Below are positions 754 to 16,011 of a stretch of DNA of 20,833 nt, piece by piece. Below the pieces are notes generated by a model, which was given only the letters and a program-made list of their open reading frames with translations, did no database searches and was not told the DNA's origin. Position 1 is the first letter of the stretch. Every line of letters begins with the position of its first letter. The translations under genes were made by a program, and so were the position numbers. The stretch comes from a virus. The DNA lies in the IMG/VR virus record IMGVR_UViG_3300025430_000132, positions 1-20,833 of that record. The stretch is one strand, 5' to 3'.

Positions 754-1700
754 AGTATTACTCTGACGAAGAATTTATCATGTTGTTTCAGATGTACAAA
801 AGTCCGAGCGTTATGGCCGCCGAACTTGGTATGTCTGAAAGGTCGATATATGCTCGTAGAAACGCTTTAGAGGGCCGATATGAGATCCAATTAGAAACCG
901 TAGAGGTTAAGAACAGGGTTGAGCCAAAGCCCCCACAACTCGATTTAGGAATACTCAATGGCACAGTCATTGTTTTTTCTGACGCACACTTTTGGCCCGG
1001 TATTCGTACCACTGCTTATGATGGTTTGATTTGGGCTATCAAGAATTTAGAAAATGTCAAGGCGGTAATCAATAATGGTGACGCTTTTGATGGCGCTTCA
1101 ATTAGCAGGTTTCCCAGAATCGGCTGGGACAAAACCCCTAGTCTTATTGATGAAGTTAGGGCGTGTGAGATTGCTCTGGGTGAGATAGAAGACGAAGCCA
1201 AAAAAGTTAACAAAAATGTTAAGTTAATGTGGCCTCTTGGTAACCACGATGCTCGCTTTGAGAACCGTTTGGCCGCAAATGCCCCTCAATATGAGCACAT
1301 CAAAGGCTTTAGCCTAAAAGACCATTTTCCTGCATGGCATCCCTGTTGGTCAGTATGGTTAAATCAAAATGTTGTGGTTAAGCATCGTTGGAAGGGTGGA
1401 ATCCACGCTACCCACGCCAATACGCTGAATGCTGGTGTTTCTATGGTGACGGGGCACTTACATAGCCTAAAAGTCACACCTTATGATGACTATAACGGAA
1501 CACGATACGGTGTAGATACGGGAACTCTTGCAGAACCTTCTGGACCCCAATTTGAGAATTACTTAGAACACGCACCTACTAATTGGCGTTCTGGGTTTGT
1601 AATTTTAACTTTCCACAAGGGCAATCTATTGTGGCCTGAGGTGGTTAAGGTTTATGACAAGGACCACATTGAGTTTAGAGGACAAGTGATCAGGGTATAA
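750..1700 (+). CDS. Metallophosphoesterase with N-terminal helix-turn-helix
   Basis: This 316-aa protein has a calcineurin-like phosphoesterase core with the metal-ligand motifs in order: SDAH (D78, H80), GDAFD (D111, D114), GNHD (N165, H166, D167), GGIHATH (H219, H222) and GHLH (H236, H238). The family uses two metal ions to hydrolyse phosphomonoesters or diesters; the substrate here is unknown. Residues about 18-42 (SVMAAELGMSERSIYARRNALE) look like a helix-turn-helix, suggesting recruitment to DNA. The start was placed at ATG 750, which overlaps the preceding stop and has GGAGGAAG at 737-744. A TTG at 735 in frame would lie on that ribosome site and is less likely. The gene ends just before the terminator at 1703. 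Confidence 0.83.
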   Translation: MKYYSDEEFIMLFQMYKSPSVMAAELGMSERSIYARRNALEGRYEIQLETVEVKNRVEPKPPQLDLGILNGTVIVFSDAHFWPGIRTTAYDGLIWAIKNLENVKAVINNGDAFDGASISRFPRIGWDKTPSLIDEVRACEIALGEIEDEAKKVNKNVKLMWPLGNHDARFENRLAANAPQYEHIKGFSLKDHFPAWHPCWSVWLNQNVVVKHRWKGGIHATHANTLNAGVSMVTGHLHSLKVTPYDDYNGTRYGVDTGTLAEPSGPQFENYLEHAPTNWRSGFVILTFHKGNLLWPEVVKVYDKDHIEFRGQVIRV

Positions 1701-4054: not shown

Positions 4055-6012
4055 CCGCTAACGTCGTCAATCTACAAATCCCTGCTGGTATACAGAGGGA
4101 TGGAACGCAATTCGATGCTCCATGCTATGTGGATGGGCAGTGGGTGCGTTTTCAACGTGGTAGACCTCGTAAGATTGGTGGATATAACGGTTTGTTTTTG
4201 AATAGCCCCGGTATTTCGCGTGGGATGCTACAAAACTCCTACAACGGACTCAACTACATCTATTCAGGCTACAACACTGGCCTTTATTATTGGCAGACTA
4301 ACGATGTAAATGGCGTAGGTTTTGGCCCTCAAGCCATCACGATGCCCTCCAATTTCACGTCTAGCAACAACAATTTGTGGCAGTTTGACATTGGATACGA
4401 TGCAAATGGTACAAAGCTGTTGAACTTCATAGCTCATGCAGGTCAAAATTTAGGTGACATAAGCTCAACAACAAATACGCCTGTGTTTACGGGGCAGTTT
4501 CCCGGTGGTTCTCTCTCCAGCGTAGGCGTTTTCACAGCTACAGGCACTCCCTCTGGCACTCAAATTACCATCACTGGCCTCAATTACAAAATCAACACAG
4601 GCCAATTGGTGACAGGAACAGGTATTCCAGCCAATACAACCGTATCTTCTGTGACATTTTCAACAAACACAGTTGTGATGGTCAGCAACTCCATCACTGG
4701 AACGTCTCCCATAACAGTCACTTTTGACAACCAGATATCTGTGAGTGGTGGAGCTTGTATGCTCTACCCTTATCTTTTTGTTTATGGCAACAATGGGTTG
4801 ATACAGAACTGCGCGGCAGGTGACTTCACCAACTGGGTCTCTGCTGACTCTAACGCCAACAACGTCTCTGCTACAAAAGTAGTCAAGGGTATGCCTTTAA
4901 GGGGTGGTACAACCTCTCCAGCAGGCCTGTTTTGGTCTCTAGACCAGCTCACTCGTGTCTCCTACGCTCCTCAAACAGTAGGAACGAGCAACCTTTACTG
5001 GCGTTATGACATCATTTCTAGCCAAACCTCTATCATGTCCTCTAACTGCGTGATTGAGTACGATGGCATCTATTATTGGTGTGGAACTGACCGTTTCTTG
5101 ATGTACAACGGTGTTGTTCAAGAGATGGAGAACAGAACTAACCTCAACTGGTTCTTTGACAACTTGAACTATTCTCAGAGACAAAAGGTCTGGGTAAGCA
5201 AAGTTCCTCGTTGGGGTGAGATTTGGTGGTTCTACCCAAGGGGTAATGCTACTGAGTGCACAGATGCAATCATTTATAACGTCAGAGAGAAGACTTGGTA
5301 CGATGCAGGCCAAGCCATGGGAGCCAATCGCTCTGCTGGTACCTTCTCTGAAGTGTTTAGATACCCTGTTTGGGCAGGAAATACCTCTTTGAACAGTGCT
5401 TTGTTCACTGGTTCTATATCTGGTACGACTTTGACAGTTAGTTCCATGGCTTCTGGGCAGATTTTTGCTGGTGAAGTACTCTTGGGTACAGGAATAGCCA
5501 CAGGAACCGTTGTAACTGCCTTTGTGAGCGGAACTGGAGGCACTGGTACCTACACTGTGTCTATCTCCCAAACCGTCTCTAGCACCCAAATAACGGCTCA
5601 GAGCTATACCATTTGGCAACATGAGATTGGCACAGATGCCATCCTGCTGAACAACGTGGATGCCATAGATTCTTATATCGAGACCAACAGTATTGGCTGG
5701 GTCAATGGTGGAGCTGGTCAGAAAGCCACTTTGGGAACGAATAGGTGGGTAAGGTTAGAGCGTGTTGAGCCTAACTTTAACCAGACTGGACCCATGAATA
5801 TGTATGTCACTGGTAAGAGTTATGCGGATGGCACAGATGTTGTGTCTCAAGCGTATGCGTTTGACCCAACAACATCTAAAATTGACCTCAGAGAGCAACG
5901 TCGTGAGATGAGACTCAAGTTTGAGAGCAACGTCACTGGAGGTAATTACGAAATGGGTAACATCCTATTGAGTGTTGACCTTGGTGACGAGCGTGGAACA
6001 GGTAACCCATAA
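4051..6012 (+). CDS. Tail nozzle-like / tail tube protein with two inserted beta modules
   Basis: This 653-aa protein starts at TTG 4051, preceded by GGAGG at 4040-4044 and overlapping the previous stop (TTGA). Residues 10-46 ([26 protein letters not shown], then GRPRKIGGY) match the opening of a large family of phage tail-tip proteins (nozzle/DNA-stabilisation type), followed by a WD/kelch-like pattern of W- and Y-rich strands. Two Gly/Thr-rich Ig-like modules interrupt it, at about 160-226 ([14 protein letters not shown], then [14 protein letters not shown]) and about 450-520 ([15 protein letters not shown], then [11 protein letters not shown]). These are a repeat type common in phage structural proteins. 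The C-terminus (about 530-653) returns to the core. The role would be to close the tail and hold DNA. Family identity is good; the nozzle name is inferred from neighbours. Confidence 0.62.
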
Positions 6013-6254
6013 TGTTTACATACGATCCTCGCGGGCTTACTTGGGATCAATGGTGTGCTCGTATGGCTGAGTTGTTTGCCTCTAACCAATTAGGTACGCT
6101 ACCTGAGACCCACTGGAGAGATTGGGCGGACGGTATGCAAGGAATCGGGTATTTTGTTCAATCTGGAGTTCCAGACCAAAGAGGATTTGCTCATTGGTAC
6201 GATTGGGCAGAAACTTTGTGTGGAATTATGTCAATACAACCGAGTCAATCATGA
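6012..6254 (+). CDS. Small Trp-rich phage protein, unknown function
   Basis: This 80-aa protein is unusually rich in tryptophan (for example TWDQWCARMAELF, HWRDWADGMQGIGYF, HWYDWAE). It starts at ATG 6012, overlapping the nozzle stop (TAATG), and its TGA overlaps the next ATG (ATGA at 6251-6254), so it is coupled on both sides. Position between tail and ejection genes suggests a virion-associated or assembly role. I recognise no catalytic motif and assign no function. Confidence 0.75.
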   Translation: MFTYDPRGLTWDQWCARMAELFASNQLGTLPETHWRDWADGMQGIGYFVQSGVPDQRGFAHWYDWAETLCGIMSIQPSQS

Positions 6255-15131: not shown

Positions 15132-15343
15132 GATCTCACCCATGACATCAGTATTGAAACAAACGTCATGACTGATGAGCAGTAAACTGCAAACCAGAAC
15201 ATTCTTCGTAGAGACCAGTCGCTCTCAATGCCGAGTAGGACTGCTTGTATGTGCTCTTCTTCAGCGTTTAGCTGTCTCAGAGGTGGCGTGTAACAGGAAC
15301 CAATCTTGATGCCCGTCTTAGTTGTGTAAAAAACATTGTCCAA
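15128..15343 (-). CDS. First gene of the leftward operon: small membrane-anchored protein
   Basis: The start was placed at TTG 15341-15343, which has AAGGAG six nt upstream; a longer frame to 15373 would put that site inside the gene. The 71-aa product has a soluble N-terminal part (TKTGIKIGSCYTPPLRQL, then AEEEHIQAVLLG) and a C-terminal membrane span at about residues 48-69 (MFWFAVYCSSVMTFVSILMSW). It is the first gene after the predicted leftward promoter at 15378-15406, so it would be made earliest. Small early membrane proteins in phages often block superinfection or alter the host envelope, but that is only a possibility here. Confidence 0.7.
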   Translation of the reverse strand: MDNVFYTTKTGIKIGSCYTPPLRQLNAEEEHIQAVLLGIESDWSLRRMFWFAVYCSSVMTFVSILMSWVRS

Positions 15344-15377
15344 TTTTTTCTCCTTAAAACACCTGTGGTGCAAACAA

Positions 15378-15406
15378 ATAGTATCATGGTTTTAATAAAA
15401 AGTTAA
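15378..15406 (-). promoter_or_regulatory. Leftward early promoter (PL-like)
   Basis: Read on the minus strand: TTAACT (-35, 15406-15401), a 17-nt spacer, TACTAT (-10, 15383-15378). The start point would be near 15371, giving a leader of about 28 nt before TTG 15343. Its -35 box contains the AGTTA half-site of the operator-like dyad. Confidence 0.5.
15393..15405. promoter_or_regulatory. Operator-like dyad OL
   Basis: TAATA-AAA-AGTTA differs at two of thirteen positions from the perfect dyad at 15433-15445. It overlaps the -35 and spacer of the leftward promoter, so a bound repressor would block it. Its centre is 40 bp from that of OR, about four helical turns. Confidence 0.45.
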
Positions 15407-15427
15407 ACCCTTTTTGTCTGAAGGGTT
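15406..15427. repeat. Inverted repeat between the two divergent promoters
   Basis: AACCCTT (15406-15412) and AAGGGTT (15421-15427) are perfect complements around an 8-nt centre. It lies exactly between the two -35 boxes. It may be a second regulator site or the base of a hairpin; no T-tract follows on either strand. Confidence 0.45.
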
Positions 15428-15454
15428 GTTATTAACTAAAAGTTATGGTAAATT
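15426..15454 (+). promoter_or_regulatory. Rightward early promoter (PR-like)
   Basis: TTGTTA (15426-15431), 17-nt spacer, TAAATT (15449-15454). The start would be near 15461, exactly where the first pairing segment of the leader RNA begins. Two dyads sit in it: TAACT-AAA-AGTTA in the spacer and the palindrome GTAAATTTAC (15448-15457) over the -10. Confidence 0.5.
15433..15445. promoter_or_regulatory. Operator-like dyad OR
   Basis: TAACT-AAA-AGTTA is a perfect 5-bp inverted repeat with a 3-nt centre, located between the -35 and -10 boxes of the rightward promoter. The same half-sites and spacing recur at 19072-19084 within another predicted promoter. The Cro/YdaS-like protein encoded at 15698 is the obvious candidate ligand. 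Confidence 0.55.
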
Positions 15455-15460
15455 TACAAC

Positions 15461-15680
15461 TGTTGGCGAAGCGGGTTAGCGCCGTGAGGGCAATTCTTAG
15501 AAGTGTTGTGCAACCTCGTCACTGCTTTATGTGAACGCCAACACCAAGACGCATGGGGATTGAAGCGATGCATAGCTGTGGGACGCGTTCCGACTTTAAG
15601 TGCAGTCTCCAGCCGTGTTGGTGTGGCGAAAGCCTGAGACTGGCAACCTGCGTTAATGTTCAAGGCAGGACACCAACAGC
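15461..15680 (+). ncRNA. Structured leader RNA with four alternating pairing segments
   Basis: This non-coding stretch, part of a 354-bp gap between genes, is GC-richer than its flanks and dense in complements. Segment 1, TGTTGGCG (15461-15468), pairs perfectly with segment 2, CGCCAACA (15536-15543). Segment 3, TGTTGGTGT (15616-15624), pairs perfectly with segment 4, ACACCAACA (15670-15678). Segment 2's extension ACACCAA (15541-15547) can instead pair with TTGGTGT of segment 3 (15618-15624). Inside the 3:4 hairpin are GGC-GAAA-GCC (15625-15634) and CCTGC/GCAGG (15647-15651, 15665-15669). Outside it, AGTCTC (15604-15609) can pair with GAGACT (15636-15641), which would compete. Segment 4 ends 6 nt before the AAGGAT ribosome site of the regulator gene. 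It resembles an attenuator or a phage antisense RNA (C4-like) in location; the identity is open. Confidence 0.55.
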
Positions 15681-15697
15681 ACACAAGGATAAAAAAA

Positions 15698-15898
15698 ATG
15701 ACTTTGGAAGAATACTTTAAAGAAGAGCCGCTAGGAGCGGTCAAAGAGATGGCTGACTATTTGGGTATCAGTACCACATGGTTGTCATTGATAATCCATG
15801 GAAAACGCAACCCATCTCCCAAACTGGCAATAAGGATTGAGGAAGCGACTATAGGGTTAGTCACTAGAAAAGATTTGTTACCAGCCTTCTTTCAGTAG
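15698..15898 (+). CDS. Cro/YdaS-like helix-turn-helix regulator
   Basis: This 66-aa protein starts at ATG 15698, behind AAGGAT. Residues about 12-37 (LGAVKEMADYLGISTTWLSL, then IIHGKRNPSP) form a Cro/CI-type helix-turn-helix, followed by SPKLAIRIEEAT, which is the usual fourth helix of the YdaS/Cro group. It lacks a dimerisation/cleavage domain, so it resembles Cro rather than CI. It is the first gene of the rightward arm and probably binds the dyads at 15393-15445. No CI-type repressor is present in this window, which is unusual for a lambda-like switch. Confidence 0.8.
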   Translation: MTLEEYFKEEPLGAVKEMADYLGISTTWLSLIIHGKRNPSPKLAIRIEEATIGLVTRKDLLPAFFQ

Positions 15899-15908
15899 TA
15901 CAATTTGT

Positions 15909-15983
15909 TGAAACACGGCTAGGTGGGGGGTAGCTATCCCACCGAAAAGAGTTTAGACCCCTCCTGCCGAGGTTTCCTTTTTT
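15909..15983 (+). terminator. Structured RNA with T-tract after the regulator gene
   Basis: Outer arms GAAAC (15910-15914) / GTTTC (15972-15976), CGGC (15916-15919) / GCCG (15966-15969) and AGG (15921-15923) / CCT (15963-15965) form a bulged stem, followed by six T (15978-15983). Inside, GGTGGG (15922-15927) pairs with CCCACC (15938-15943); its loop GGGT can also pair with ACCC (15957-15960), a possible pseudoknot. The inner hairpin competes with the AGG/CCT part of the outer stem. It can act as a terminator or a regulated attenuator before the replication genes. Confidence 0.6.
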
Positions 15984-16011
15984 CAGGGTCTTGTTTTGGG
16001 TCTAAAAATCT

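Follow-up and report, generated by a model that had tools for sequence, protein, structure and literature searches.

The described RNAs that come closest to the element reported here resemble it in different respects. The C4 antisense RNA of P1/P7-like phages, too, is a phage leader RNA and precedes a regulatory gene; int-alpA RNA is a phage RNA also anchored at a start site, and a candidate relative occurs in the same region of the DNA studied; and the ornate RNAs GOLLD and ROOL are phage-associated and structured, of unknown role, some of them lying near tRNAs. The put RNA of HK022 is about 70 nt long, with putL located just downstream of an early promoter, and requires no phage protein (PMC9378689).

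The window (the whole stretch of viral DNA that was analysed, 20,833 nt) carries at 15461-15680 an element that can be set beside each of these. Like put, it is predicted to be a short structured RNA near the start of an early transcript, upstream of early genes (PMC9378689); unlike put, which has two stem-loops and two copies per phage, it belongs to a type with a kissing loop, one array per genome and exchangeable modules. Antitermination by put goes through the zinc-binding domain of the RNA polymerase β' subunit. In contrast to C4, the window RNA gives no match to the C4 covariance model and has no conserved target pairing, and the int-alpA-like RNA is a separate element that does not cover 15461-15680. 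It also differs from GOLLD and ROOL in being much shorter, modular and mosaic, and in having no Rfam match. The element is very probably one version of a single-copy modular phage RNA: its first domain (type A) has a kissing loop, its second is a constant scaffold whose insert can be exchanged, and a further closed stem follows.

In terms of composition and folding, what the earlier note had described holds. Its four segments are all present (15461-15468, 15536-15543, 15616-15624 and 15670-15678), the first pairing with the second at 8 of 8 positions and the third with the fourth at 9 of 9. The alternative partner of segment 3, ACACCAA at 15541-15547, does pair with TTGGTGT at 15618-15624, as part of a longer imperfect helix given by a 22-nt inverted repeat (15541-15562/15603-15624, 77% complementary). 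The region is G+C-rich (about 0.52, against 0.28-0.44 in the flanks), no coding frame is conserved across it, and the motif TGTTGGYG is found six times in the window where 1.9 are expected, four of the six lying inside the region. Compared with shuffled sequences, the second and third domains fold stably (z = -3.1 and -2.6) and the first, taken alone, weakly (z = -1.1), while the region as a whole folds only moderately better than shuffles on the + strand (z = -1.7, against -0.4 on the - strand). Comparison with about 200 viral contigs shows that the region is a chain of three RNA domains (Table 1). The last segment ends beside the ribosome site of a gene with its ATG at 15698; the open reading frame as called mechanically begins at 15656, inside the third RNA module (Pfam YdaS_toxin, E 1.2e-7; HTH_3, E 1.9e-5), and the true start at 15698 is given by homology with the loci L066 and L072 and by the ribosome site.

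Table 1. Position and make-up of the leader RNA and its flanking signals in the window
Feature	Position	Strand	Description and basis
Promoter	15426-15431 (TTGTTA); 15449-15454 (TAAATT)	+	17-nt spacing, extended TG; by eye
Type A RNA domain	15461-15543	+	covariation, loop-loop covariation, independent covariance model
Type A, P1	15461-15468/15536-15543	+	
Type A, P2	15471-15474/15482-15485	+	loop GUUAGCG
Type A, P4	15520-15522/15531-15533	+	loop UGCUUUAU
Type A, loop-loop contact	15478-15480 with 15524-15526	+	AGC with GCU
Scaffold module	15541-15624	+	ACGCAUGGGGAUUG (15549-15562) pairs with CAGUCUCCAGCCGUGUUGG (15603-15621); CA/GC internal loop (2x2) is conserved; ACACCAA/UUGGUGU forms an outer pairing that runs into the modules on either side
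Exchangeable scaffold insert	15563-15602	+	GUGGGACGCGUUCC..CUUUAAGUG type
Third module	15616-15678	+	closing stem UGUUGGUGU/ACACCAACA, own insert
Shine-Dalgarno AAGGA	15685-15689	+	unpaired in both folds
YdaS/Cro-like helix-turn-helix gene	15698-15898	+	66 aa

A type A scan of viral contigs matched 23 of them, and covariation across homologues, which the earlier note had proposed as a check, turned out to be strong. In 41 non-redundant copies, P1 averages 10.4 pairs, against 5.4 (maximum 6.5) when the partners are shuffled among sequences, and P2 and P4 covary as well; by a pair counter, 99.5% of the cells are paired and two-sided changes number 28, compared with 6.8 in shuffles. The copy in the window scores 49.5 bits (E about 1.7e-13) against an independent covariance model, built leaving out the window, L066, L072 and L222. 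The loops UUAGC and UGCUUUAU are nearly invariant, with the combination UUAGC:UGCU in 41 of 41 modules; where the first loop is UUGGC, the second becomes UGCC. Two scans in which UUGGC was fixed and the partner base left free returned UGCC in 14 of 14 distinct modules and C in six of seven further ones that passed on structure, counts that come from sequences related to one another and do not represent independent events, whereas the partner base in the 51 matches that do not fold was T in 20, G in 12, C in 10 and A in 9. The change occurs in two differently built groups. This covariation is direct evidence for the loop-loop contact predicted in type A.

Where would such an RNA start? The -10 box ends 4-6 nt before P1 in 18 of 20 5'-terminal type A copies, which have about seven different promoters, so that type A is expected to start at about +1. 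For the window itself, a consensus promoter scan did not report the promoter that the earlier note had placed upstream of 15461, and the start at segment 1 is instead supported by the promoter recognized by eye, which ends six bases before it, and by the conserved position in relatives. Among the genes downstream of 5'-terminal type A copies are Cro-like helix-turn-helix genes, in three groups, and a further gene that looks early. It is well supported that the window element would be the 5'-terminal part of a rightward early transcript of an uncultured phage, "early" being a status taken from the genes.

The scaffold of the second domain is present in at least 119 viral contigs. Its constant ends, ACGCAUGGGGAUUG and CAGUCCCCAGCCGUGUUGG, enclose an insert of 20-72 nt, and the inserts fall into recurring types, in a list that also includes reverse-strand echoes of the near-palindromic scaffold. 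At least eight of the nine stem pairs are formed in 134 of 136 units picked solely by their ACGCA and CCGTGTTGG anchors; since the search pattern for most of these units already fixed part of the stem, the informative ones are L175, L188 and L110, where the stem sequence is different but pairing is kept. As many as four units follow one another in a chain, and by the scaffold pattern there is one array per contig in 24 contigs of 19-58 kb. The closure of the third domain (GTTGG..CCAAC) is found after 107 of 138 scaffold units, compared with 18 of 126 for control stretches; its pairs beyond that motif exceed those with shuffled partners.

Relatives were also collected through close relatives of the downstream DUF1376 gene, which gave 80 viral loci. 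Among them, the leader is found in L066 and L072 (the first domain alone, directly before the ribosome site), in L042 and L011 (three domains each) and partially in L083; L002 has the same gene without the leader. A single downstream gene family is accompanied by many different S modules, insert types occur in both scaffold positions, and a relative of the window's insert is in the S position in L042. The loci L208 and L218 agree at 97.3% of positions across the upstream 600 nt, a stretch that includes type A, and at 93.5% across the downstream 336 nt; in between, they share the scaffold ends alone and their inserts are unrelated, L011 being a third version. Near-identical flanks around entirely different inserts point to cassette exchange. 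The modules of the window recur in unrelated contexts: the type A domain of L222, where the surroundings are different, shares 98.8% identity with that of the window, and the scaffold units of L111, L133 and L157, which lie beside a tRNA gene, share 88% (82-84 nt) with the window's unit, whose insert type occurs in these and in L124. The YdaS-like gene of the window, in contrast, is only about 70% identical to the nearest homologues. Arrays may be followed by genes, by tRNA genes or by a second terminator-closed RNA, and may themselves come after tRNA genes or terminators.

Known RNAs do not account for the element. Rfam 15 gave no match in the window at gathering score, a permissive search of 15340-16010 (to E = 10) gave none for the element, C4 included, and in 14 array loci nothing appeared except two S modules that resemble tRNAs; the tRNA covariance model, which does match these two, has no match in the window. 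When the region, or one module at a time, was compared with named phages, there was no match or only chance-level pieces of about 19-24 nt. The scaffold pattern had five matches in 84,980 species genomes, near chance (our estimate being 3-4). The type A model was also run on 369 genomes from a single bacterial class, and its two top-scoring candidates there (29.5 and 28.6 bits) were rejected, as they share the first half only and have no second hairpin. Two bacterial genomes, L231 and L232, share GGAATAGGGTTAGCGCCTAA near 1501-1580 (- strand), also with no second hairpin. In the phage L283, a methylase gene is 84% identical to that of Burkholderia phage BgManors32, on which the type A model found nothing. 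Integron attC sites and dispersed repeat elements were likewise discarded, the scaffold being longer than attC boxes and arrays occurring once per contig. No description of such an RNA was found in open-licence papers, and one may exist elsewhere. The element thereby represents a family of structured RNAs, absent from Rfam, in which a loop-loop contact covaries, and it shows that phages swap RNA domains as cassettes.

Between the YdaS-like gene and DUF1376 lies a separate int-alpA-like RNA (RF02996, 15912-15988, + strand; 31.9 bits, below the gathering score of 35.8; E 1.2e-4), and the -10 box ends 6 nt before the first stem in 26 of 33 distinct matches. A second stem, TTTAGACCC/GGGTCTAAA (15952-16006), overlaps it and is, by eye, paired with other letters in L002, L066 and L042; it is possibly a real switch.

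How might the leader act? The earlier note was right to see a structured non-coding leader of a Cro/YdaS-like gene, and went further in seeing in segments 1-4 the logic of an attenuator or switch. Alternative folds do exist in the window (nested, -81.9 kcal/mol, versus local, -73.9 kcal/mol), and the GTTGG common to the outer pairing of the scaffold and the next stem recurs across arrays, so that a local either/or pairing at this junction is possible. Nevertheless, control of the gene by the leader as a whole, as an attenuator or riboswitch-like switch, seems very improbable: there is no + strand terminator in 15461-15700 and, by a stricter scan, none in the 320 nt that follow the third module; both folds leave the ribosome site free; the nested fold, with segments 1 and 4 paired, is impossible in L011, L208 and L218, where stem 1 is GCTGGTCAG/CTGACCAGC; L002 carries the gene with no leader; and the same modules precede unrelated genes, tRNAs and terminators. 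Its other suggestion, an antisense RNA of the C4 type (C4/CI), could find a basis in the perfect 9-nt complementarity of AGCCGUGUU (15611-15619) to AACACGGCU (15912-15920), at the start of the int-alpA-like RNA, but the former belongs to the constant sequence of the scaffold whatever the context of the phage copy, and the latter is equally conserved in L002 and other loci with no scaffold, so each side is conserved independently and we give this reading hardly any credence. A put-like leader has a stronger case. The kissing-loop domain would bind the emerging elongation complex and let early transcription pass terminators beyond the Cro-like gene, which would explain its place before such genes; it sits at about +1 of early or Cro-like transcripts in several unrelated phage groups, resembles put in size and place, and the U-tailed int-alpA-like RNA between the first gene and DUF1376 is a candidate terminator. 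Against it, put is described as two consecutive stem-loops and type A is one P1-closed domain with P2, a middle region and P4; the int-alpA-like element comes with a conserved -10 box of its own, making read-through unnecessary; and some array copies run straight into a terminator. On balance we consider this unlikely, albeit a serious contender, and if it held, protein-free antitermination would be common in uncultured phages. A 5'-terminal armour, with a stem at +1 blocking 5'-end-dependent decay and stabilising the mRNA while the inserts ride as passengers, would agree with P1 beginning at +1 and with the stable folds of the second and third domains; it is rather improbable, as it leaves unexplained the conserved loops UUAGC and UGCUUUAU, their covariation and the large recurring insert library.

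The reading that we tentatively favour, judging from sequence comparison, is that of a stable phage RNA that might act in trans, its inserts serving as separate binding or decoy domains. The structure, the anchoring at the start site, the modularity, the exchange and the single array per contig on which it builds are established by that comparison; expression, stability and action in trans are what we infer. The RNA would start base-paired at +1, fold co-transcriptionally into a string of closed domains, and accumulate and act on a host or rival-phage factor, and the inserts would be exchanged between phages by recombination at the common scaffold ends, as an arms race would predict. In the window, the array would form the leader in the transcript of the YdaS/Cro-like gene; in other contigs it would run into tRNAs or end at its own terminator. 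Most arrays have no terminator after them, and the window RNA continues into a gene; nonetheless, of 157 module ends 10 have an intrinsic terminator within 100 nt, compared with 4 among 567 control windows, which is not predicted for a leader acting purely in cis. A trans-acting RNA would explain these terminator-ended copies, the tRNA neighbours and the insert diversity, and tRNA-like modules and the one array per contig count in its favour as well. Type A alone, as a plain leader before unrelated groups of Cro-like genes, counts against it and suggests a cis role, and cassette exchange can be neutral. More generally, an undescribed and widespread class of phage RNA may exist as a cassette rack, with constant start-site-anchored scaffolds and interchangeable functional domains traded by recombination, a proposal that we hold as plausible, just short of probable, and that would be the RNA counterpart of the variable defence/anti-defence gene islands known for proteins. 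Should the inserts prove to be decoys or effectors, each could serve to probe a still unknown factor of the host or of a rival phage.

Some array loci show further features. The S modules of L102 (653-756) and L114 (2917-3024) match the tRNA model, but their loops are enlarged and CCA is missing from its usual position; they are candidate tRNA-like decoys. Downstream of the arrays of L113, L120, L123, L128, L163, L184 and L200 there is a second non-coding RNA with its own TTGACA/TATAAT-like promoter, and a long terminator stem of AAAGCCGTT..AACGGCTTTTTT type closes it. Finally, the G+C-rich phage L266 carries, around 5860-6200 (+ strand), diverged scaffold copies, CATCACGCATGCAGA..TCTGCAGTCGTGATGG, with type A within another palindromic stem; the family is broader than the patterns used here.
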